Shown here piece after piece: positions 38,615 to 61,232 of a DNA stretch of 64,000 nucleotides (positions are counted from its first letter, which is position 1; each line of letters begins with the position of its first letter). The stretch is from an uncultured Bacteroidota bacterium (GTDB lineage: Bacteria > Bacteroidota > Bacteroidia > Flavobacteriales_F > PHOS-HE28). The position numbers and the translations under genes are program-made. The stretch spans positions 372,001 to 436,000 of the forward strand of contig CADEDY010000001.1 in NCBI GenBank assembly GCA_902826215.1, written 5' to 3'. The notes beneath the pieces are model-generated. The model did not search any database. It had not been told where the DNA came from and was given only the letters and a program-made list of their open reading frames with translations.

Positions 38615-38722
38615 GGGCGTGCCCCCTCGCAAAGCCTCGGGGTCCGGCTTTCCGCTGCAAGTCCGCACTCGTCGTTCCTCCTCGCTTGCGGGCTTTCCGC
38701 TGCAATCCGTCACGCGAAGCGG
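38615..38722. repeat. REP-like intergenic element
   Basis: A non-coding stretch after the ALDH gene with a short palindrome (GGGCGTGCCCC) and two related units around GGCTTTCCGCTGCAA (38646 and 38691). From memory this GGGCGTGCCCC / GGCTTTCCGCT arrangement is an interspersed element in many Bacteroidota genomes; I cannot check its copy number here. It marks the left border of the accessory region. Confidence 0.55.
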
Positions 38723-40902: not shown

Positions 40903-40911
40903 TTACCCACC

Positions 40912-40983
40912 ATGCCCCGCCTCATCGTCCACGGCTTCACCATCTCGCTCGACGGCTACGGGGCCGGCCCGCAACGATCAGTG
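40912..40983 (+). pseudogene. 5' fragment of a DHFR-family gene, copy A1
   Basis: ATG plus about 22 codons (MPRLIVHGFTISLDGYGAGP...) of a dihydrofolate-reductase/RibD-C-domain gene, then loss of homology and a stop at 41008-41010. The first 33 bases are almost identical to copies at 41702, 42231 and 42791. It lies nine bases after the stop of the lipoprotein gene. Confidence 0.75.
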
Positions 40984-41014
40984 GCGCAAAATGCTGAGTT
41001 AGCACATTGAGGGA

Positions 41015-41641
41015 ATGACCTGGAGACCGTCCCTTAGAGACATTACAGGAGTGGAAATACTGCTCGTGTATGCACTTGCAGTAATATCCGTCCTCGCATT
41101 GGGTTGGTGGCTGTTCCGCGTGCTCAAGGCATATCGCACGGGCGGAAAGCGCAGCGCGGTCCTTCAACCAAGCTTGGCGGTTGTCTTGTTCCTTGCCCTC
41201 ACATGGTTGTATGTCTCTTTCGAAAGGACCTCAGGCGTTCTGCCTACGGGTGGTCTGCACTATCTGAAAGGCTATCTCTGTTGGCCATACAATGTCAGTG
41301 TCTTTTCCATTGATGACGTGAAGCTTGATTCAGCATTCTATCGCTATCCCCTCGACGACTACCTTCTCAAAAGTGGAGAGTATGGGATCACACGTTGGAC
41401 GAACTACAGTCCGATCGATACCGTGATTTGGTACGGAATGGACAGCACGTTGAAGGGATGCAACGACCACAACGACCTGTACGATGCTTTGATGAGAGGC
41501 GATTCCCTCTATTTCGCGGGCACGTATAGGAACATGATCGTTCCGAACGGTAGTCGGAAGCAGGCCTACGAGCGCATAATATTCCTTGACGTGACCCGGA
41601 AGCGGCTCCACATATTCAAGGATATCAATAAGGTGTTCTAG
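41015..41641 (+). CDS. hypothetical membrane protein
   Basis: A 208-residue protein with two N-terminal transmembrane helices (about residues 15-38 and 51-70) and a C-terminal soluble domain of about 135 residues with aromatic and acidic residues (WYGMDSTLKGCNDHNDLYD). No family recognised. It lies between DHFR-family fragments A1 and A2 and is probably accessory cargo. Confidence 0.65.
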   Translation: MTWRPSLRDITGVEILLVYALAVISVLALGWWLFRVLKAYRTGGKRSAVLQPSLAVVLFLALTWLYVSFERTSGVLPTGGLHYLKGYLCWPYNVSVFSIDDVKLDSAFYRYPLDDYLLKSGEYGITRWTNYSPIDTVIWYGMDSTLKGCNDHNDLYDALMRGDSLYFAGTYRNMIVPNGSRKQAYERIIFLDVTRKRLHIFKDINKVF

Positions 41642-41701
41642 CCCTCGGTGGTCTTCGGGTGCTCCCACAACGTTCGAACTGACCTTGTAGCACGACCTGC
41701 C

Positions 41702-41734
41702 ATGCCCCGCCTCATCGTCCACGGTTTCACCATC
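41702..41734 (+). pseudogene. 5' fragment of a DHFR-family gene, copy A2
   Basis: Eleven codons, MPRLIVHGFTI, identical in protein sequence to copy A1 and differing by one synonymous base (GGT for GGC). Homology ends sharply at 41734. Confidence 0.7.
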
Positions 41735-41904
41735 CTCGGGACCTTTAGCCATAAGGCGTTTCGTAGCCACGATACTGTGCGTGCTCGATGCAGGTGCCCG
41801 CTTCATCACACGGCCTATCACTTGGGTGCGAACGGAGCAATTCTGCTTTTGCATGCACGTTGATGGAATCGGTCCACGAACACCACATCGGGGCCACCTC
41901 AACC

Positions 41905-42138
41905 ATGCATCGCTTTTCCATCCTCTTGTTCATCTGTATGCTCGGCACCGCAAGTGCAGCACCGCTCAGGGCCAGTGCCCCTCCTGACCAGCATCACGTG
42001 ATGTGGACCACGGAAAAGGGCGCTCGCAAGTGCATCACGAAGAAGACCCGCGAGAAGGCGGAAAAGGCAGCTGCGCTTTTGCGGAAGATCTCCTTTTTCA
42101 AGGATATCCAAGTACTCCCGGGGAAGTGCGATAAGTGA
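41905..42138 (+). CDS. small secreted protein, unknown
   Basis: A 77-residue protein with a signal peptide (MHRFSILLFICMLGTASA) and a short basic mature part (KKTREKAEKAAALLRKISFFKDIQVLPGKCDK). No family recognised. It sits between fragments A2 and A3. The open frame continues upstream to 41788, but the signal peptide fixes the start at 41905. Confidence 0.55.
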   Translation: MHRFSILLFICMLGTASAAPLRASAPPDQHHVMWTTEKGARKCITKKTREKAEKAAALLRKISFFKDIQVLPGKCDK

Positions 42139-42173
42139 GCATGTCTGGGCGGCGGCTTCGATCCCCCGACTTT

Positions 42174-42197
42174 GGCACGAGCGTCCACGCTCGTGGG
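42174..42197. repeat. hairpin CACGAGCG-TCCA-CGCTCGTG
   Basis: A perfect 8-bp stem with a four-base loop, 35 bases after the small secreted protein gene. It may be a terminator or a copy of a dispersed palindrome. No T run follows. Confidence 0.4.
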
Positions 42198-42230
42198 CTA
42201 GGGCCAACTTCGATCCGCAATCATCCCCCC

Positions 42231-42350
42231 GCGCCCCGCCTCATCGTCCACGGTTTCACCATCTCGCTCGACGGCTTCGGCGCCGGTCCGCAACAATCGT
42301 TGGAGGCCCCTCTCGGCATCGGCGGTGAGGCCTTGCACGACTGGATCGTC
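42231..42350 (+). pseudogene. 5' fragment of a DHFR-family gene, copy A3 (longest)
   Basis: Forty codons of the same DHFR-family N-terminus, through SLEAPLGIGGEALHDWIV; the first codon is GCG instead of ATG, so it cannot start translation. Homology ends within a few bases of the convergent lipoprotein gene at 42355. Confidence 0.78.
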
Positions 42351-42354
42351 TTAC

Positions 42355-42696
42355 CTATTTGATCAGCTCGTAGGTCATCTCGTCGAGCGAATAGAACGTG
42401 CCTGATCCTCTGTTCGCAACCATCGGATCGATGTCAGCCTCTGTGATCAATGTTTTGCGCAGGATCCCTGAAACACGAACCCGCTGTCCTCGGTATTCCT
42501 CCAAGCCCCACGCATCCACGCCCTCCACTTGTGGGCACTTGGTGTTGGTAACGACACCTTCTAACACGACCCGTTCCCCCACTTGCTGCTCCAGATCACG
42601 GTCGGCCGCTGATGCCGGGGCTGTAACCGATGTGGACCGGCATCCAACGAAACCAGCGGTAGTGAGAAGGAGAGTGAATATCAACGCGGCACGCAT
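42355..42696 (-). CDS. small lipoprotein, unknown
   Basis: A 113-residue lipoprotein (MRAALIFTLLLTTAGFVGC, lipobox at about Cys19). The mature part (VGERVVLEGVVTNTKCPQVEG ... RGQRVRVSGILRK) has the strand pattern of a small OB-like barrel, which is inference. Opposite in strand to the flanking fragments A3 and A4. Confidence 0.6.
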   Translation of the reverse strand: MRAALIFTLLLTTAGFVGCRSTSVTAPASAADRDLEQQVGERVVLEGVVTNTKCPQVEGVDAWGLEEYRGQRVRVSGILRKTLITEADIDPMVANRGSGTFYSLDEMTYELIK

Positions 42697-42790
42697 GGTG
42701 AGTAGCAGGCAGGCCCAAAGTACAATGGTGTCGAGCGGCCCCATGCAACGGCTGGGTTGAACCCCCCAATCCGATCCCTAACCTCCCACG

Positions 42791-42823
42791 ACGCCCCGCC
42801 TAATCGTCCACGGTTTCACCATC
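42791..42823 (+). pseudogene. 5' fragment of a DHFR-family gene, copy A4
   Basis: Eleven codons (TPRLIVHGFTI) with ATG changed to ACG and one synonymous change (CTA). Homology ends at the same base of the gene as copy A2. Confidence 0.7.
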
Positions 42824-42863
42824 TGGCCTGCCTCCGGAAGGCAGGCTCGCGTCACCCGGCGTT

Positions 42864-43539: not shown

Positions 43540-43902
43540 ATGAAACCCGGAGCCAACAACGAACGCGTGTATCGCATGTCCTTCGCCAGTGTGTACCCGC
43601 ACTACGTCACCAAGGTGGAGAAGAAGGGCCGCACCAAGGAGGAGTTGCACACCGTGATCCACTGGCTCACGGGCTACCCGGAGAAAGGCCTCGCCAAGGT
43701 GATCGCCGACAAGATCGACTTCGAGACCTTCTTCGCCAAAGCGCCACGGATGCATGCGAACGCACACCTGATCACGGGCATGATCTGCGGTTATCGCATC
43801 GAAGAGATCGAGGACCCCGTCATGCGGCAGGTGCGTTACCTGGACAAGCTGGTGGATGAGCTGGCGAAGGGTAGGGCCATGGAGAAGATCCTGCGGAAAT
43901 GA
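43540..43902 (+). CDS. DUF2200 family protein, intact
   Basis: A 120-residue soluble protein of the DUF2200 family ([27 protein letters not shown] ... [18 protein letters not shown] ... [16 protein letters not shown]). Function unknown. This is the only full copy here; an N-terminal fragment lies 3.1 kb upstream (40393) and C-terminal fragments lie 0.8 and 2.1 kb downstream (44546, 45906). The start at 43540 follows an AACTTTG element by seven bases; the frame opens upstream but without family similarity. Confidence 0.85.
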
Positions 43903-43931
43903 TCGGCCCTGCACATACCTTGGTGGACACC

Positions 43932-44456
43932 ATGCGCACCTTCATCCTGGCCGCAACCCTCTGCCTTCTCCACGCGAGCGGTAGCGCGCAAGTGACGGTC
44001 ATCGACATGCCGCCTGAGCGTCCTCCGCGCCCCTTGGTGGACATAAGCATCGGCGAGTACGAACGCCAGGAGGACGGCAGCCTGCAGGTGGAGTTCCGGA
44101 TCATGAACAGTTCGCCCGACACGGTCCACTACCTCATGATGTCCTGCTCCACGGAAGACCTTCTGATGCTGGATACGCTATCCTGCTTCGAATTGGTTCC
44201 AAGTGTCTGTGATAAGAACGTCCCACAACGGAGTACGCTACCACCAGGGAAGCTCTCGGTATATCGGTTCACAATGAAGCCCCTCCAGGTGGGGCGACGG
44301 GGTGGGCGCTATGTGCGGGGCATGGTAGGGTGGCGCTATGTGCCCGTGCCGCCAGGCACGGACCTGTCCACCGCCTTTGAACAGCGCGAGCAGCTAGGCT
44401 CCATCGTTTGGTCCGAGCCGCTCCCCAACTGGAGTTGGCAGCCGAGTCGCCCCTGA
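43932..44456 (+). CDS. secreted beta-rich protein, unknown
   Basis: A 174-residue protein with a signal peptide ([20 protein letters not shown]) and a single beta-sandwich-like domain ([22 protein letters not shown] ... VHYLMMSC ... YRFTMKPL). It may resemble Ig-like inhibitor folds, but that is a guess. It lies between the intact DUF2200 gene and its first tail fragment. The ATG at 43932 fits the signal peptide. Confidence 0.6.
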
Positions 44457-44545
44457 TGCGATCTGGAATGCACGTTGAACCGAAGAGCAGCTTCTCTGAC
44501 CTTGCGACCGGAGCACGGATCACTAGGACCTCCGCATTCATGGTC

Positions 44546-44722
44546 ACAGGCTTGGCCAAGGCTCCAAGCCTCAACACGAACGTCTCGAGCGTCGCCGGCG
44601 TCATCTGCGGTTACCGCATCGAAGAGTTCGAGGACCCTATCATGCGGCAGGTGCGCTACCTGGACAAGCTGGTGGATGAGCTGGCGAAGGGCAGGGCGAT
44701 GGAGAAGATCTTGAGGAAGTAA
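44546..44722 (+). pseudogene. 3' fragment of a DUF2200 gene, copy B1
   Basis: About 58 codons matching the C-terminal half of DUF2200 ([29 protein letters not shown]... to the stop). The last 80 bases are about 90% identical to the intact gene; farther upstream the match is at protein level only. Its TAA overlaps the ATG of the Crp/Fnr gene (TAATG). Confidence 0.78.
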
Positions 44723-45309
44723 TGACCGATCCACACGAGGTTCTCTGTGTGCACTTCGATCGCTACCTGGCCCTGGACCCGGCCGAGCAATCGGCGCTGA
44801 AGGAACGCAGTCGTGTGCGCCGCCTGAAACGGCGCGGCTTCCTGTTGCAGGAGGGCGAAGTGTGTCGGTCGTATGCTTTTGTGGTGGAGGGCTGTTTGCG
44901 GATGTACGAGATCGACGAGAAAGGCGTGGAGCACAACCTGCAGTTCGCGCAGGAGAACGAGTGGATCGTGGACATCGGCAGCTTCCACGCGGAGAAGCCG
45001 AGCAGCCTCTTCATCGAAGCCTTGGAACCGAGCACGGTCGTATGCATCGAGCATCCCGACCTGCTTTGGCTCTACACCGAGCACCCGAAGTTCGACCGCA
45101 ACTTCCGGGTGATCATCGAGGACCTGTTCGTGGAACTGCAACAGCGGCTGCTTCGCCGCAATGCTTCCAGTGCCGAACAGCGTTACGCGCATTTCGTTCA
45201 GCACCATCCGGGCTTGGCGGCGCGCGTCCCCGGCGTGCACATCGCCTCCTACCTGGGCGTCACACCGGAGTTCCTCAGTCGCCTGCGGGCGAAGACGAGC
45301 AAGCACTGA
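44722..45309 (+). CDS. Crp/Fnr-family transcriptional regulator
   Basis: A 195-residue regulator with an N-terminal cyclic-nucleotide-binding-like beta roll (about residues 20-120) and a C-terminal winged helix. The recognition helix reads VTPEFLSRLR, an E-x-x-S-R pattern as in FNR, which reads TTGAT half-sites; a perfect TTGAT-N4-ATCAA palindrome begins five bases after the stop. No N-terminal Cys cluster like that of oxygen-sensing FNR is evident. The start overlaps the stop of the DUF2200 fragment. It probably controls the SnoaL-like gene that follows. Confidence 0.85.
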   Translation: MTDPHEVLCVHFDRYLALDPAEQSALKERSRVRRLKRRGFLLQEGEVCRSYAFVVEGCLRMYEIDEKGVEHNLQFAQENEWIVDIGSFHAEKPSSLFIEALEPSTVVCIEHPDLLWLYTEHPKFDRNFRVIIEDLFVELQQRLLRRNASSAEQRYAHFVQHHPGLAARVPGVHIASYLGVTPEFLSRLRAKTSKH

Positions 45310-45400: not shown

Positions 45401-45889
45401 ATGAAACACAACATTCTCCTCGCGCTATCAGCGGTCATGCTAGTGAGCTGCCAAGCGCCCAACCCGGAAACCACAACGGACCTGAACACCGCCGAAACCA
45501 TGAACACCGCCAACGATCAGACCGCGATCAAGGACCTTCTCTTCGCATACCGCGATGCCCTCAACGCCTCCAGTGTGGACCAGGTTCTCCCGCTCTACAC
45601 GACCGATGGCGTGTTCATGCCAACAGGCTTCCCGACAGCCGTCGGAACGGAGCAGGTGAAGGGTGCATACGCCGGTGTATTCTCCATGATCAAGCTGAAC
45701 ATCGAGTTCTTCATCGATGAGATCGAAGTGGATGGCGACCATGCTTTCGCCCGCACCACCTCGCGCGGCACCACCTTGATCCACGCCACGGGCGAGACCG
45801 TTCCCGAAGAGAACCGGGAGCTGTTCGTGCTTCAACGCACCGACGGCGGCTGGAAGATCGCGCGGTACATGTTCAACAAGATGAAGTGA
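45401..45889 (+). CDS. SnoaL/SgcJ-like NTF2-fold lipoprotein
   Basis: A 162-residue lipoprotein (MKHNILLALSAVMLVSC, Cys17) with an NTF2-like domain (DQTAIKDLLFAYRDALNASSVDQVLPLYTTDGVFMPTG ... FVLQRTDGGWKIARYMFNKM). It belongs to the SgcJ/EcaC group; substrate unknown. It is probably regulated by the adjacent Crp/Fnr protein through the palindrome at 45311-45330. Confidence 0.82.
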   Translation: MKHNILLALSAVMLVSCQAPNPETTTDLNTAETMNTANDQTAIKDLLFAYRDALNASSVDQVLPLYTTDGVFMPTGFPTAVGTEQVKGAYAGVFSMIKLNIEFFIDEIEVDGDHAFARTTSRGTTLIHATGETVPEENRELFVLQRTDGGWKIARYMFNKMK

Positions 45890-45905
45890 TCGGTGATCCA
45901 TCACC

Positions 45906-45955
45906 TCGATGAACTGGCCAAGGGCAGGGCCATGGAGAAGATACTGCGGAAGTGA
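45906..45955 (+). pseudogene. 3' fragment of a DUF2200 gene, copy B2
   Basis: The last 16 codons of DUF2200 ([16 protein letters not shown] and stop). In the final 48 bases it differs from the intact gene at five positions, all synonymous. It starts 16 bases after the stop of the SnoaL-like gene. Confidence 0.75.
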
Positions 45956-57013: not shown

Positions 57014-57976
57014 ATGAGCAAGACGACCACGAAGCCCACCGCCGTCAAGGCCGACCTGAACGGCCACAGCACCAACGGCGCTGCCAAGAAAGCCGAACGT
57101 GTTCCGGTGATGAAGACCTACAAGATCTTCATCGGCGGCAAGTTCCCGCGCACCGAGAGCGGACGCTACTATCAGCCCTTGGACCACGATGGCAAACCGC
57201 TGGCGAACATCTGCCGAAGTAGCCGCAAGGATGTGCGCGAAAGCGTGATCGCTGCGCGCAAGGCCTTGGGCGATTGGTCCAACCGAAGCGCCTTCAACCG
57301 CGGGCAGATCCTCTACCGCATCGGCGAGATGCTCGAAGGCCGCAGCGCGCAATTCGTGCATGAACTGAAGTTGCATGGCGCTACGCAGAACCAAGCCGAA
57401 GCCGAGGTGGCCACCGCCATCGACCGCTGGCTCCACTACGCCGGTTGGTGCGACAAGTACCAAGCGGTCTTCAGCAGCGTGAACCCCACGAACAGCTCGC
57501 ACTTCAACTTCAGCGTGCAGGAACCCACCGGTGTGGTGGGCGTGATGGCACCAGACAACACGGGCCTCTTGGGTCTGGTGAGCATGATCGCTCCCGTGAT
57601 CACCGGCGGCAACACCTGCGTGGTGGTGGCCAGCGAAAGCAAGCCCTTGCCCGCCGTCACCTTTGCTGAAGTGCTTGCCACCAGCGACCTCCCCGGCGGC
57701 GTGGTGAACCTGCTGACCGGTTTCCGCAAGGAGCTGCTGAAGCCCTTGGTAGCGCACATGGACATCAACGCCATCGCCATTGCCGATACCACGAAGGAAG
57801 AGCGCACCATGCTCGAACAGGAAGCGACCTGCAACCTCAAGCGTGTGGTCTATCCGAAGGTGAGCGATTGGATGAAGGAGGATGGTCAGAGCCCGTATAT
57901 GATCCTCGATACACAAGAAGTGAAGACCACGTGGCACCCGATCGAGCGGGGGCAGGGTGGGGGTGGTGGATATTGA
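57014..57976 (+). CDS. truncated aldehyde-dehydrogenase-like protein lacking the catalytic domain
   Basis: A 320-residue ALDH-superfamily protein containing only the cofactor-binding half (YKIFIGGKFPRTESGRYY ... EPTGVVGVMAPDNTGLLGLVSMIAPVI ... SKPLPAVTFAEVLATSDLPGGVVNLLTG). The LELGG Glu and the catalytic Cys loop are absent, so it is unlikely to oxidise aldehydes. The C-terminal VKTTWHPIERG region looks like a natural end of this subfamily, so it is a shortened paralogue rather than a broken gene. Its last codons recur twice downstream (58729, 59241). A TTG at 56972 is an alternative start. Confidence 0.85.
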   Translation: MSKTTTKPTAVKADLNGHSTNGAAKKAERVPVMKTYKIFIGGKFPRTESGRYYQPLDHDGKPLANICRSSRKDVRESVIAARKALGDWSNRSAFNRGQILYRIGEMLEGRSAQFVHELKLHGATQNQAEAEVATAIDRWLHYAGWCDKYQAVFSSVNPTNSSHFNFSVQEPTGVVGVMAPDNTGLLGLVSMIAPVITGGNTCVVVASESKPLPAVTFAEVLATSDLPGGVVNLLTGFRKELLKPLVAHMDINAIAIADTTKEERTMLEQEATCNLKRVVYPKVSDWMKEDGQSPYMILDTQEVKTTWHPIERGQGGGGGY

Positions 57977-57992
57977 CCCGGCCGCGAGCACT

Positions 57993-58298
57993 ATGCCCAA
58001 GCTCTACGAGTACTTCGGAATGGTCTTTCTGATGTTCAGCAATGAACACAGCCCGATCCATGTCCATGTTCGGTATGGCTCGTACGAATCCGTGCTCGAG
58101 TTGATCATGTTAGAAGGGCAACTCGTGGACGTGGTCTTCCGGAAGTTGAGCAACAAGCGCGTACTGCCCTTGGCGCAACAGCGTGAAGCCGAGGTCTTCG
58201 TTCGTGCCAAGGCAATGGACATCGTCCGGAAGTGGAATGATTACTTTGTACTACATAAGCACGTTGCACCCGAGCGCATTACCAAGCGCATCAAGTAA
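57993..58298 (+). CDS. DUF4160 family protein
   Basis: A 101-residue DUF4160 protein (LYEYFGMVFLMFSNEHSPIHVHVRYGSYE; ... VLPLAQQREAEVFVRAK). DUF4160 genes are commonly paired with DUF2442 genes, as here, and the pair is suspected to be a toxin-antitoxin-like module. Its TAA overlaps the next start (TAATG). It lies 17 bases after the ALDH stop, between the ALDH gene and the first copy of its tail. Confidence 0.85.
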   Translation: MPKLYEYFGMVFLMFSNEHSPIHVHVRYGSYESVLELIMLEGQLVDVVFRKLSNKRVLPLAQQREAEVFVRAKAMDIVRKWNDYFVLHKHVAPERITKRIK

Positions 58299-58705
58299 TG
58301 ACCATCCCGGAGAACGTTTTCGTCAAGAATGCCAAGTATGTGGGCGACTATCGCATTGCGTTCCGCTTCAGCGATGGGCATGCTTCCGAAATAGATTTCC
58401 ACACCTTCCTGACCGCCCCTGCGCAGAACCCCATGGTGTCGCAGTTCATGGACGTTACCCGCTTCAAGGATTTCACCATCGAAGACCGTGCAGACATCGT
58501 TTGGGGCGATTGGGAGATGTGCTTTCCGTTCGCTGCACTTTATGCGGGTGACCTCGCTGTGGATTCGCTGGGGAAGAAGCGGGGTAGAAGTGCCGGTCAG
58601 GTTCGAACGCGACCGAACATCCCACTAGGAACTTCCACTGCACGGCGCAAGAAGAAAGTGGTGAGCAACAGCAAACGTTCTATTCGGAAAGCCCCCAAGA
58701 AGTAA
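58298..58705 (+). CDS. DUF2442 family protein with basic tail
   Basis: A 135-residue protein: DUF2442 domain (residues 8-92, YRIAFRFSDGHASEIDF ... RADIVWGDWEMCFPFAALYAG) followed by a Lys/Arg-rich tail of about 40 residues that could bind nucleic acid. Partner of the overlapping DUF4160 gene. Confidence 0.83.
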   Translation: MTIPENVFVKNAKYVGDYRIAFRFSDGHASEIDFHTFLTAPAQNPMVSQFMDVTRFKDFTIEDRADIVWGDWEMCFPFAALYAGDLAVDSLGKKRGRSAGQVRTRPNIPLGTSTARRKKKVVSNSKRSIRKAPKK

Positions 58706-58728
58706 TGGGTGACAGTTCCATCGTATAT

Positions 58729-58782
58729 GCGCAGAAGGTGAAGACCACTGGGCAGCCGATCGAACGGGGCGGAGAATATTGA
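58729..58782 (+). pseudogene. 3' fragment of the ALDH-like gene, copy D1
   Basis: Seventeen codons and stop (AQKVKTTGQPIERGGEY) matching the last codons of the gene at 57014 (TQEVKTTWHPIERG...GY and stop). A TATATG match just upstream suggests the homology runs a little farther with a small deletion. Confidence 0.72.
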
Positions 58783-58785
58783 TGA

Positions 58786-59235
58786 ATGTTGATCATGCGC
58801 TTGGTGCTGCTCATGACCGTTTACTTGTCGTTGACCGCGATGGTCACGGACGGCGGCAATTCGTCAAGCCGCATTGACTTTACGAACGATGAGTCGGTGG
58901 TTTTTATGACCGAGACCGTAGTCGAACTGATCGGCCCGCCTCACTTAACGCCGGATTGTGGGTACTTCGCTTTCGAGTCTGCCATGCTGTTCAAAGTGGT
59001 TCAAAGTGAAAAGTACATGTCTGAAGGAGATAGCGTGGTCATGATCTTCCGGTGTCCTGAGGGGTATGGTCCGGATTTCTTCGAACGTACGCGCCAATAC
59101 GTGGTGGAGCTTGTAGATGCTGCACCGGAAACTGGTTTCGGCTGGTCTACACTCAACGTGTACAAAGACGCGAAACTTCGGACTTTCTGGGCGACTTCGT
59201 GCAAGCCGCGTTTCTTTTCGGGGCCATTGCGATGA
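58786..59235 (+). CDS. small secreted protein, unknown
   Basis: A 149-residue protein with an N-terminal export signal (MRLVLLMTVYLSLTAM from the ATG at 58795, or three residues longer from 58786). The mature part contains Asp/Glu-rich strands and two Cys (PDCGYFAFE, FRCPEGYG). No family recognised. It starts four bases after fragment D1 and ends six bases before fragment D2. Confidence 0.6.
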   Translation: MLIMRLVLLMTVYLSLTAMVTDGGNSSSRIDFTNDESVVFMTETVVELIGPPHLTPDCGYFAFESAMLFKVVQSEKYMSEGDSVVMIFRCPEGYGPDFFERTRQYVVELVDAAPETGFGWSTLNVYKDAKLRTFWATSCKPRFFSGPLR

Positions 59236-59240
59236 ATAAT

Positions 59241-59292
59241 GAAGTGAACGTCACCTAGCTCCTGATCGAGAGAGGGCGGGTGGTGGTATTGA
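59241..59292 (+). pseudogene. 3' fragment of the ALDH-like gene, copy D2
   Basis: Matches the last 17 codons of the gene at 57014 at base level (GAAGTGAA ... GATCGAG ... GGTGGTATTGA) but with an in-frame TAG replacing TGG, so it is more decayed than D1. Confidence 0.6.
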
Positions 59293-59317: not shown

Positions 59318-59842
59318 GTGCAACACAAGATCTACTGCACCGAGTTGGCTCAAGAAGCGTTCATTTCCCGCGTACATGGGTTGACGATCGTGGAGAACGA
59401 CCGATCAATGGTTCGCTTCATGTTTTCGCCTTTCATGTCTACCGAAATCGATGATGGCACCAAGCCACTTTACGGGAGCATTGCGGCAAGTTCTTTCAAG
59501 TTGTGGGAGAATTCATGGTTCTGGAGTGGTGCTGCACTCACATACATCCACGGGGTTTGGAGCACACATGGATCAGGGTTGAGATTGATCATGCGACCAC
59601 GAAGAAGTCCCATACTGAAGGTGCTCGTGTTGTTGCCATTGTTGGCCGTAGTCAGCTTCTATTGGAGCTTGCGCGATGACTTCCCTAGCATGACGCTCTT
59701 CGGCCAAGTGGTCGGCCCACTTATCGGTCTTGTGATCGGCTTCTGCTTCTGGCTTCCTCTGTGGTTGGTGCACCGTGTCCAAAGCAGAGGCCTCATTCAA
59801 TTCTTGCAGAAGGAATTGGGATTGAAGGAAGCCGATTCTTGA
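59318..59842 (+). CDS. hypothetical membrane protein
   Basis: A 174-residue protein if started at the GTG at 59318: a soluble N-terminal half and two transmembrane helices (about residues 102-117 and 128-150). The start is uncertain. No family recognised. It follows ALDH fragment D2 and is likely cargo of the same accretion site. Confidence 0.55.
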   Translation: MQHKIYCTELAQEAFISRVHGLTIVENDRSMVRFMFSPFMSTEIDDGTKPLYGSIAASSFKLWENSWFWSGAALTYIHGVWSTHGSGLRLIMRPRRSPILKVLVLLPLLAVVSFYWSLRDDFPSMTLFGQVVGPLIGLVIGFCFWLPLWLVHRVQSRGLIQFLQKELGLKEADS

Positions 59843-59959: not shown

Positions 59960-59986
59960 ATTCAACCAAAAGGTTGAATATATTTG
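59960..59986 (+). promoter_or_regulatory. ArsR-type operator overlapping a Bacteroidota -7 element
   Basis: ATTCAACCAAAAGGTTGAAT (59960-59979) is a perfect palindrome with 8-base arms. Its last T begins TATATTTG (59979-59986), an exact TAnnTTTG element, six bases before the ArsR ATG at 59993. A bound repressor would block initiation, and the mRNA would have almost no leader. Confidence 0.75.
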
Positions 59987-59992
59987 TACCCG

Positions 59993-60328
59993 ATGGCAGC
60001 ACCACGAACACTTGATCGCACACTCACCGCACTCGCGGATCCAACACGTCGCGCGATCTTACGACGCCTCTCCTCTGGCGAAGCACGCGTGACCGAAGTG
60101 GCTCGTCCGTTCAGCATATCGTTGAACGCGATCTCCAAACACATCCTCGTACTAGAGCGCGCGAAACTCGTGAAGCGTCGTAAGGTGGGTCGTGATCACT
60201 TCATCAGCTATCGGTCCGAGCCTTTGGATGCGGCGGCGAAATGGATCGATGAGACCCGCAACTTCTGGGCATCGCGATTGGACACTTTGGAACAACTGCT
60301 GCGGGAAGAGGACGCGGCCAACAAGTAA
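59993..60328 (+). CDS. ArsR-family transcriptional repressor
   Basis: A 111-residue winged-helix repressor of the ArsR/SmtB type (LTALADPTRRAILRRLSSGEARVTEVARPFSISLNAISKHILVLERAKLVKRRKVGRDHFI). It has no metal-binding ELCVCDL motif, like the ArsR proteins paired with SRPBCC genes, so it probably senses something else. It likely binds its own operator at 59960. The SRPBCC gene starts 19 bases after its stop. Confidence 0.93.
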   Translation: MAAPRTLDRTLTALADPTRRAILRRLSSGEARVTEVARPFSISLNAISKHILVLERAKLVKRRKVGRDHFISYRSEPLDAAAKWIDETRNFWASRLDTLEQLLREEDAANK

Positions 60329-60347
60329 CGCTTCAACACCAATTCAC

Positions 60348-60875
60348 ATGGATAACTACGGAACCGTCACCGCACCCAACACCATCCGCTTCGAACGCCT
60401 CTTACCTGGACCCATCGAACGCGTGTGGGCATACCTCACGGAATCGGACAAGCGCGCCAAGTGGCTCGCCAGTGGCGACATGGATCTGCACGTCGGCGGC
60501 GATGTGAATTTGTTCTGGTTGCACAGCACGTTGGATACAGCGCCCAGCGAAACGCCGGAGAAGTACGCGAACGGTCACCGCATGACCGCGAAGATCACGC
60601 GCTGTGAGCCTCCGCATGTGCTGGGTTATTCGTGGGGTGCTCGGGAGGACGCCTTATCCGAAGTGGTCTTCGAACTTTCCAAAAAGGGAGATGAGGTGCT
60701 CCTCGTGCTCACGCATCATCGCTTGCCCAACCCCAACGACCTGCTCGGCGTTTCCGGTGGTTGGCACACGCACTTGGATGTCCTCGTGGAACATTTGAAC
60801 GGACGCGTGGCACCTGCATTCTGGGAGAAGCACGACGTGCTCAACGCCGAGTACAAGCAGCGGCAGGGTAGCTAA
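60348..60875 (+). CDS. SRPBCC (AHSA1-like) protein
   Basis: A 175-residue START-like domain protein (IRFERLLPGPIERVWAYLTESDKRAKWLASGDMDLHVGG ... GVSGGWHTHLDVLVEHL). The fold has a deep hydrophobic pocket for a ligand. It is cotranscribed with the ArsR gene, a common pairing whose ligand is unknown. Confidence 0.9.
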   Translation: MDNYGTVTAPNTIRFERLLPGPIERVWAYLTESDKRAKWLASGDMDLHVGGDVNLFWLHSTLDTAPSETPEKYANGHRMTAKITRCEPPHVLGYSWGAREDALSEVVFELSKKGDEVLLVLTHHRLPNPNDLLGVSGGWHTHLDVLVEHLNGRVAPAFWEKHDVLNAEYKQRQGS

Positions 60876-60896
60876 CGTATCATCGACAACCGTCTA

Positions 60897-61232
60897 ATGG
60901 AACCCATCACCTGGAACGATTTCGAGAAAGTGCACCTGTGTGTCGGGACAGTATTGACCGCCGCGGATCTTCCCAACGCACGCAAGCCGGCCTACGTCCT
61001 TACCATCGACTTCGGTCTGTACGGCACCAAGCGCAGCAGTGCGCAGATCACGAAGCACTATTCCAAGGCAGAACTCATCGACAAGCAGGTCGTGGCGGTG
61101 ATCAACTTTCCGGAGAAGCAGATCGGGAGCATCATGAGCCAGTGCTTGGTCACCGGTTTCGCGGATGCGGATGGCGATATTGTCCTTGCGGCGGTTGAAC
61201 GACCTGTCCCCAACGGGACGCGGCTGATCTGA
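60897..61232 (+). CDS. CsaA-like tRNA-binding-domain protein
   Basis: A 111-residue OB-fold protein of the CsaA/EMAP-II-like group (WNDFEKVHLCVGTVLTA ... PAYVLTIDFGLYGTKRSSAQITKHY ... VVAVINFPEKQIGSIMSQCLVTGF). CsaA binds tRNA or unfolded proteins as a small export-related chaperone; which applies here is not visible. It starts 21 bases after the SRPBCC gene, so the three may form one operon. Confidence 0.9.
   Translation: MEPITWNDFEKVHLCVGTVLTAADLPNARKPAYVLTIDFGLYGTKRSSAQITKHYSKAELIDKQVVAVINFPEKQIGSIMSQCLVTGFADADGDIVLAAVERPVPNGTRLI

Follow-up and report, generated by a model that had tools for sequence, protein, structure and literature searches.

Displaced ends of conserved genes in a genus of uncultured Flavobacteriales suggest serial insertion of small cargo modules, including many toxin-antitoxin pairs

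Among the closest described systems is the C-terminal displacement of Rhs genes (Jackson et al. 2009; PMC2935791), where the intact gene is followed by strings of core fragments that vary in length. The sites described here are alike in that incoming DNA, anchored by homology to a conserved gene, appears to push the old gene end downstream. However, the part displaced in Rhs is the variable toxic tip of a polymorphic toxin, whereas our anchors are conserved genes of metabolism or housekeeping whose product is unchanged, and the cargo consists of separate genes. For the T6SS immunity-gene arrays of Vibrio cholerae, one-sided homology and homology-facilitated illegitimate recombination have been proposed (Kirchberger et al. 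2017; PMC5361080). These arrays share with our sites the sequential insertion beside a homologous anchor and the remnants of replaced 3' ends left between modules, but their cargo is of the effector/immunity type, while we find toxin-antitoxin, TIR-like and secreted-protein genes at several unrelated anchors. In Escherichia coli, a single crossover with a circularised piece produced partial 3' duplications of lacZ, of 109-950 bp, and linear events mostly deleted (PMC3240628). One-sided homology and partial 3' duplications are again the common features; the difference is that those laboratory events were mostly deletions, whereas we observe an evolutionary series with duplications. Integron gene cassettes also are small, mobile-looking modules with many toxin-antitoxin pairs and a changing order, but at the present sites no integrase gene or attC core was seen, and the repeats are pieces of the anchor gene. 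Our literature search found no precedent for a displaced-tail pattern with toxin-antitoxin cargo. The process is thus known in kind from Rhs and the T6SS arrays; what differs here is the metabolic anchors with restored product, the toxin-antitoxin cargo and the several anchors within one genus.

In the window, i.e. the whole 64 kb stretch of DNA analysed, the anchor is an ALDH-like gene (57014-57976, forward strand like all features of this site) that matches Pfam Aldedh (positions 15-233 of 461). Its 320 aa are the natural length of this protein in the genus, most genomes of which carry full-length relatives of the same length, and an accidentally truncated ALDH is thereby ruled out. The initial annotation had proposed that the 3' end of the gene recurs twice downstream, and this is borne out. 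Taking the last 75 nt of the intact gene (57902-57976) as reference, a scan of both strands of the whole window gave scores of 58 and 57 for two displaced tails, D2 and D1 respectively, against 36 for the best unrelated place; D1 and D2 are the only good matches. D1 (58705-58782) is a mini-ORF of 25 codons, MGDSSIVYAQKVKTTGQPIERGGEY*, ending in TGA; its homologous part (58720-58782) is 76% identical to the ALDH tail across 50 nt. D2 (59232-59292) is homologous from 59236 to its final TGA, with an ungapped identity of about 60% and a shortened G-run. A detail that goes beyond the initial annotation is that each tail is joined in frame to a start codon overlapping the stop of the preceding cargo gene: TAATG at 58703-58707 for D1, ATGA at 59232-59235 for D2. 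The annotation had itself raised the objection that the similarity might be limited to low-complexity G-rich sequence. This is not so: the copies share the core GTGAAGACCAC..GGCA.CCGATCGA.CGGGG, about 35 nt of the homologous part fall outside the G-run, and in D1 the G-run is nearly gone; low complexity as the source of the repeats is also rejected by the scores of the window-wide scan.

The G-run is nevertheless a feature of the intact gene in its own right. The end of ALDH (57943-57976) reads GGG CAG GGY GGG GGY GGG GGG TAT TGA and is G-quadruplex-like, GGG making up 57% of the glycine codons in the tail versus 9% in the rest of the gene. This codon pattern is the same in 29 ALDH genes (the window's and those of 28 relatives) and is conserved at synonymous positions, which points to a selection acting on DNA or RNA, as judged from codon usage. 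The conserved tract is strong at ALDH and, by inspection, weaker at the other two anchors discussed below (MCM and DUF2200), so that a G-quadruplex was rejected as a general cause. In a Phycisphaerales genome (L099), from an unrelated phylum, we also noticed a tandem repeat of about the last 29 nt of the ALDH homologue just behind its stop.

Two cargo blocks separate the three gene ends. The first holds a DUF4160 gene (57993-58298; Pfam E 4e-10, above its cut-off) and a DUF2442-like gene (58298-58705), whose start overlaps the DUF4160 stop (TAATG); the DUF2442 match is weak, 21 bits for a curated cut-off of 23.9. This pair of domains is dhiTA, predicted and named in Dickeya (PMC8198452); in Thermus, a pair of this type carried on a plasmid made the plasmid more persistent (PMC12724237). 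The domains, their order and the overlap of the genes are the same in our case; unlike in those reports, the pairs lie in chromosomal cassettes behind conserved genes of Flavobacteriales. The window pair has the layout of a dhiTA-like module, with DUF4160 as its first gene, and its role as toxin-antitoxin is predicted. The second block is a gene for a secreted-like protein of 149 aa (58786-59235) without Pfam match. Behind D2 come an ORF of 174 aa with hydrophobic stretches (59318-59842), also without Pfam match and membrane-like by inspection, then a block ArsR-HTH / AHSA1 / CsaA (tRNA_bind) at 59984-61232. The layout first described, a DUF4160/DUF2442 pair and a small secreted protein between the tails, followed by a membrane protein, therefore stands, with the weakness of the DUF2442 match and the membrane label by inspection kept in mind. 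The ArsR-HTH / AHSA1 / CsaA block is found some kb behind ALDH in several relatives, and CsaA directly behind it in L032 and L048.

An extra ALDH tail copy behind the gene occurs in five of the 45 genus genomes: that of the window, G062, G019, G026 and G027. G062 (L047) has the same DUF4160/DUF2442 pair as cargo, with DUF4160 directly behind ALDH and a displaced ALDH tail after the pair; the cargo of G019 (L044), G026 (L045) and G027 (L049) consists of a small gene and a PIN-domain gene, which by inspection we take to be laid out as a VapBC-type antitoxin/PIN pair, again followed by a displaced tail. The tails of L044 and L049 are almost identical within the conserved part. Other relatives display the uninserted states: in L033, ALDH directly adjoins the genes located after the displaced tail in L047, and L043, L050 and L051 are the states without the PIN-pair insertions of L044, L045 and L049, all six sharing a conserved neighbour, presumably transglutaminase-like, that in the latter three lies after the displaced tail. 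In L035 the ALDH stop is directly followed by a homologue (65% identity) of the window's secreted-protein gene. From L035, L033 and L043/L050/L051 it follows that the displaced tails once were real gene ends. A search of the relatives for each cargo gene directly behind the ALDH stop, as had been suggested, succeeded for two of the three genes, DUF4160 in L047 and the secreted-protein gene in L035, while no relative examined was found to have the gene after D2 behind ALDH.

The relatives thus support the serial accretion put forward in the initial annotation, and the position of the newest cargo nearest the anchor fits. The secreted-protein gene is probably older at this place than the DUF4160/DUF2442 pair, and was the native neighbour of ALDH before the pair came. 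As for the tails, the in-frame stop reported for D2 is present (TAG) and favours events of different age; that D2 is the older one is plausible rather than proven, and the divergence of D1 and D2 from the main ALDH is not a clean clock since the end of the main gene is exchanged anew every time.

The DUF2200 site of the window, at 43-46 kb, behaves like the ALDH site. Behind what we take to be a DUF2200-like gene (43540-43902, forward strand) lies a cargo gene (43899-44456, forward) whose start overlaps the DUF2200 stop (ATGA), then a displaced DUF2200 tail (44455-44722, forward; homology 44592-44722), which reads in frame from an ATG at the stop of the cargo gene. This tail keeps its native TAATG junction with a regulator gene (44722-45309). 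The uninserted state is found in G008 (L340), where an intact DUF2200 gene is followed directly by the regulator through the junction TAATGACC, the same as that of the displaced tail in the window. A third tail piece (45893-45955, forward; homology from 45908) lies behind the gene at 45401-45889, in frame with a GTG. Upstream, at 40905-42827, we observed a mirror image, with gene heads repeated in place of tails. Small cargo genes are separated there by four copies of the start (44-79 nt) of a gene resembling the RibD/DHFR family of reductases (MPRLIVHGFTISLDG..), and no full-length RibD/DHFR-like gene was seen in this interval.

The claim that the process is not tied to one gene family holds beyond the DUF2200 site and its own uninserted state. 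Across the genus—species-level assemblies, mostly MAGs—the DUF4160/DUF2442 cassette lies directly behind the methylmalonyl-CoA mutase gene (MCM) in five species, behind ALDH in two, behind NuoN in one, and behind or slightly downstream of UvrC in two. The MCM tail was found in 31 of 45 genomes, 18 of which have displaced MCM tails, up to three copies in a row. Between these copies lie PIN-domain pairs, a HicA-like gene with a partner, DUF2281, a ThsB-like TIR protein, and secreted or presumably lipoprotein-like genes, the latter label being given by inspection. A gene-agnostic census of local repeats, over about 400-456 kb each of G000, G010 and an outgroup, returned few such sites each; the process is therefore focused on certain anchors and not genome-wide. 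Some observations on MCM itself may be added: many genus genomes have two or more copies of the gene, and its C-terminal body is 93-95% identical on average between species, far over ALDH (about 80%), the last 300 nt falling to 74-85%. In G019 (L290, 5814-6663, oriented) two adjacent TIR-like genes follow a displaced MCM tail, the first of them matching ThsB_TIR with 48 bits; they possibly form a defence module within the stack.

The explanation that we favour, and hold to be likely, is that foreign DNA is inserted serially, held by homology on one side only, and pushes the recipient's old gene end downstream. The incoming piece would stem from a related species and span the 3' portion of a conserved gene (ALDH, MCM, DUF2200) together with the sequence behind it there; it would recombine by homology inside the recipient's copy. 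The anchor would thereby keep a complete, now donor-derived end, with the donor cargo as next gene; the other end of the piece, devoid of homology, would join within the same gene or just behind, for which it would suffice that a linear piece is joined illegitimately or that a circularised one enters by a single crossover. At an illegitimate junction 3-10 bp of microhomology would be expected; by inspection, TTCG is common to some MCM junctions. The old gene end, still linked to its native neighbour, would be shifted downstream and decay, and a later event at the same anchor would stack new cargo in front. We infer the uptake route and the joining enzyme: homologues of DprA and ComEC are present in the window's genome, so that uptake by transformation is possible, while Ku is absent from this genome and from 40 of 44 genus genomes, which leads us to reject a Ku-dependent end joining. 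What counts against the model is that experimental homology-facilitated illegitimate recombination usually deletes recipient DNA (PMC3240628), whereas the events here duplicate. In its favor, the G022 and G062 sequences reveal a breakpoint inside MCM: identity is 75-82% upstream of it and rises to about 99.7% in the final 310 nt and in the cassette; this is one clear case, which may also reflect a later exchange between two pre-existing cassettes. In addition, G002 carries the displaced tail and cassette of G022 (92.8% identity, for a background of 74-82% and 74% between their ALDH genes) behind a newer, presumably lipoprotein-like gene, G022 being the uninserted state.

A simpler reading would be a target-site or tandem duplication within one genome, the insertion of cargo or slippage doubling the anchor tail, with copies identical at the start. 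The best-scoring tail D2 scores best with the window's own ALDH, and the own MCM is the closest match for 5 of the 18 displaced MCM copies of at least 80 nt; these five may be internal duplications or older events. For the other 13, however, the MCM of another species is the better match, and for 9 of the 18 the own gene even ranks 28 or lower out of about 42, i.e. in the bottom third. Among the long copies, that of G010 is 81% identical to its own gene versus 87% to another species, and that of G021 75% versus 91%. Most displaced MCM tails are therefore not simple internal duplications, and we consider this reading improbable as a general explanation. The argument for a foreign origin rests on MCM, the ALDH tails being too short for a phylogeny or for assigning donor and recipient.

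Equally improbable in our opinion are site-specific cassettes, mobilised by an integrase acting in trans on an attachment site in the anchor 3' end and leaving attL/attR-like repeats, in the manner of tRNA-gene islands or integron cassettes. Insertion does always occur at the anchor 3' end, toxin-antitoxin modules reassort like cassettes behind MCM, and the copy starts cluster near -36 and -84 to -96 from the stop, where a REP-like hairpin precedes several copies. This clustering is partly a matter of shared ancestry and may partly reflect a sequence preference. But the copies span 33 to 467 nt (starts from -34 to -467, almost always reaching the stop), no constant core repeat was found at both element ends, the anchors are several and unrelated, and the hairpin is absent, by inspection, at ALDH and DUF2200. 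The repeats of one locus differ by 10-25% and often stem from different lineages, at odds with the short identical repeats of fixed length that sign transposition, and no recombinase or mobility gene was recognised among the cargo ORFs scanned with Pfam (those of the window and ten others). It is slightly less probable still that the tails are selected small genes, translated mini-ORFs that keep the anchor C-terminal peptide with a new start coupled to the cargo stop. A start codon in frame, placed at the stop of the cargo gene before the tail, occurs in all ALDH copies, in one of the two copies at DUF2200 and in around half of those MCM copies that have forward cargo, more than the roughly 10% expected for an ATG there, an imperfect null since the tails may extend upstream beyond detectable homology, raising the chance of an in-frame start. 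The near identity of the L044 and L049 tails also speaks for selection; against it, the new N-terminus is not conserved, and stops or frameshifts interrupt D2 and the copies of L310, L318 and L294.

The hairpin of the MCM sites deserves description. A long REP-like hairpin with the loop GAGGNACGA stands directly before the MCM tail copies of G010 (L238), L283, L290, L292, L293, L314 and L318, some of these hairpin-preceded copies being only about 80 nt behind the intact gene. In the window, a tandem palindromic repeat, GGATTGCAGCGGAAAGCCCGCAAGCGAGGAGGAACGACGAGTGCGG, at 38635-38716, has its loop motif in common with the MCM hairpins, and it is present in other genus genomes.

To return to the homology-anchored insertion of foreign DNA, toxin-antitoxin genes would be enriched in the cargo because they resist loss. 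A further idea, tentative and rather doubtful as it stands, is that a cargo lying between anchor and displaced tail owns two homology arms and might move by ordinary homologous recombination into any species with the gene, whatever lies downstream. Such cassettes, recombinase-free and stabilised by toxin-antitoxin pairs, would home to gene ends, perhaps helped by the G-tract at ALDH.

In this genus of uncultured Flavobacteriales, the same conserved genes have repeatedly received imported genes immediately behind them, including many toxin-antitoxin pairs. In most insertions the former gene end stays stranded downstream as a scar, so that the order of arrival is legible at sites with no visible integrase or transposon. 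For annotation this is a warning: a short ORF that looks like the C-terminus of an adjacent enzyme can be such a scar. The entry of small modules into chromosomes without phage, transposon or integrase has so far been largely inferred; here the displaced gene ends record single events, their order and sometimes the donor lineage, at several anchors across the genus. Gene gain driven by recombination, and its preference for toxin-antitoxin cargo, thus become directly countable.
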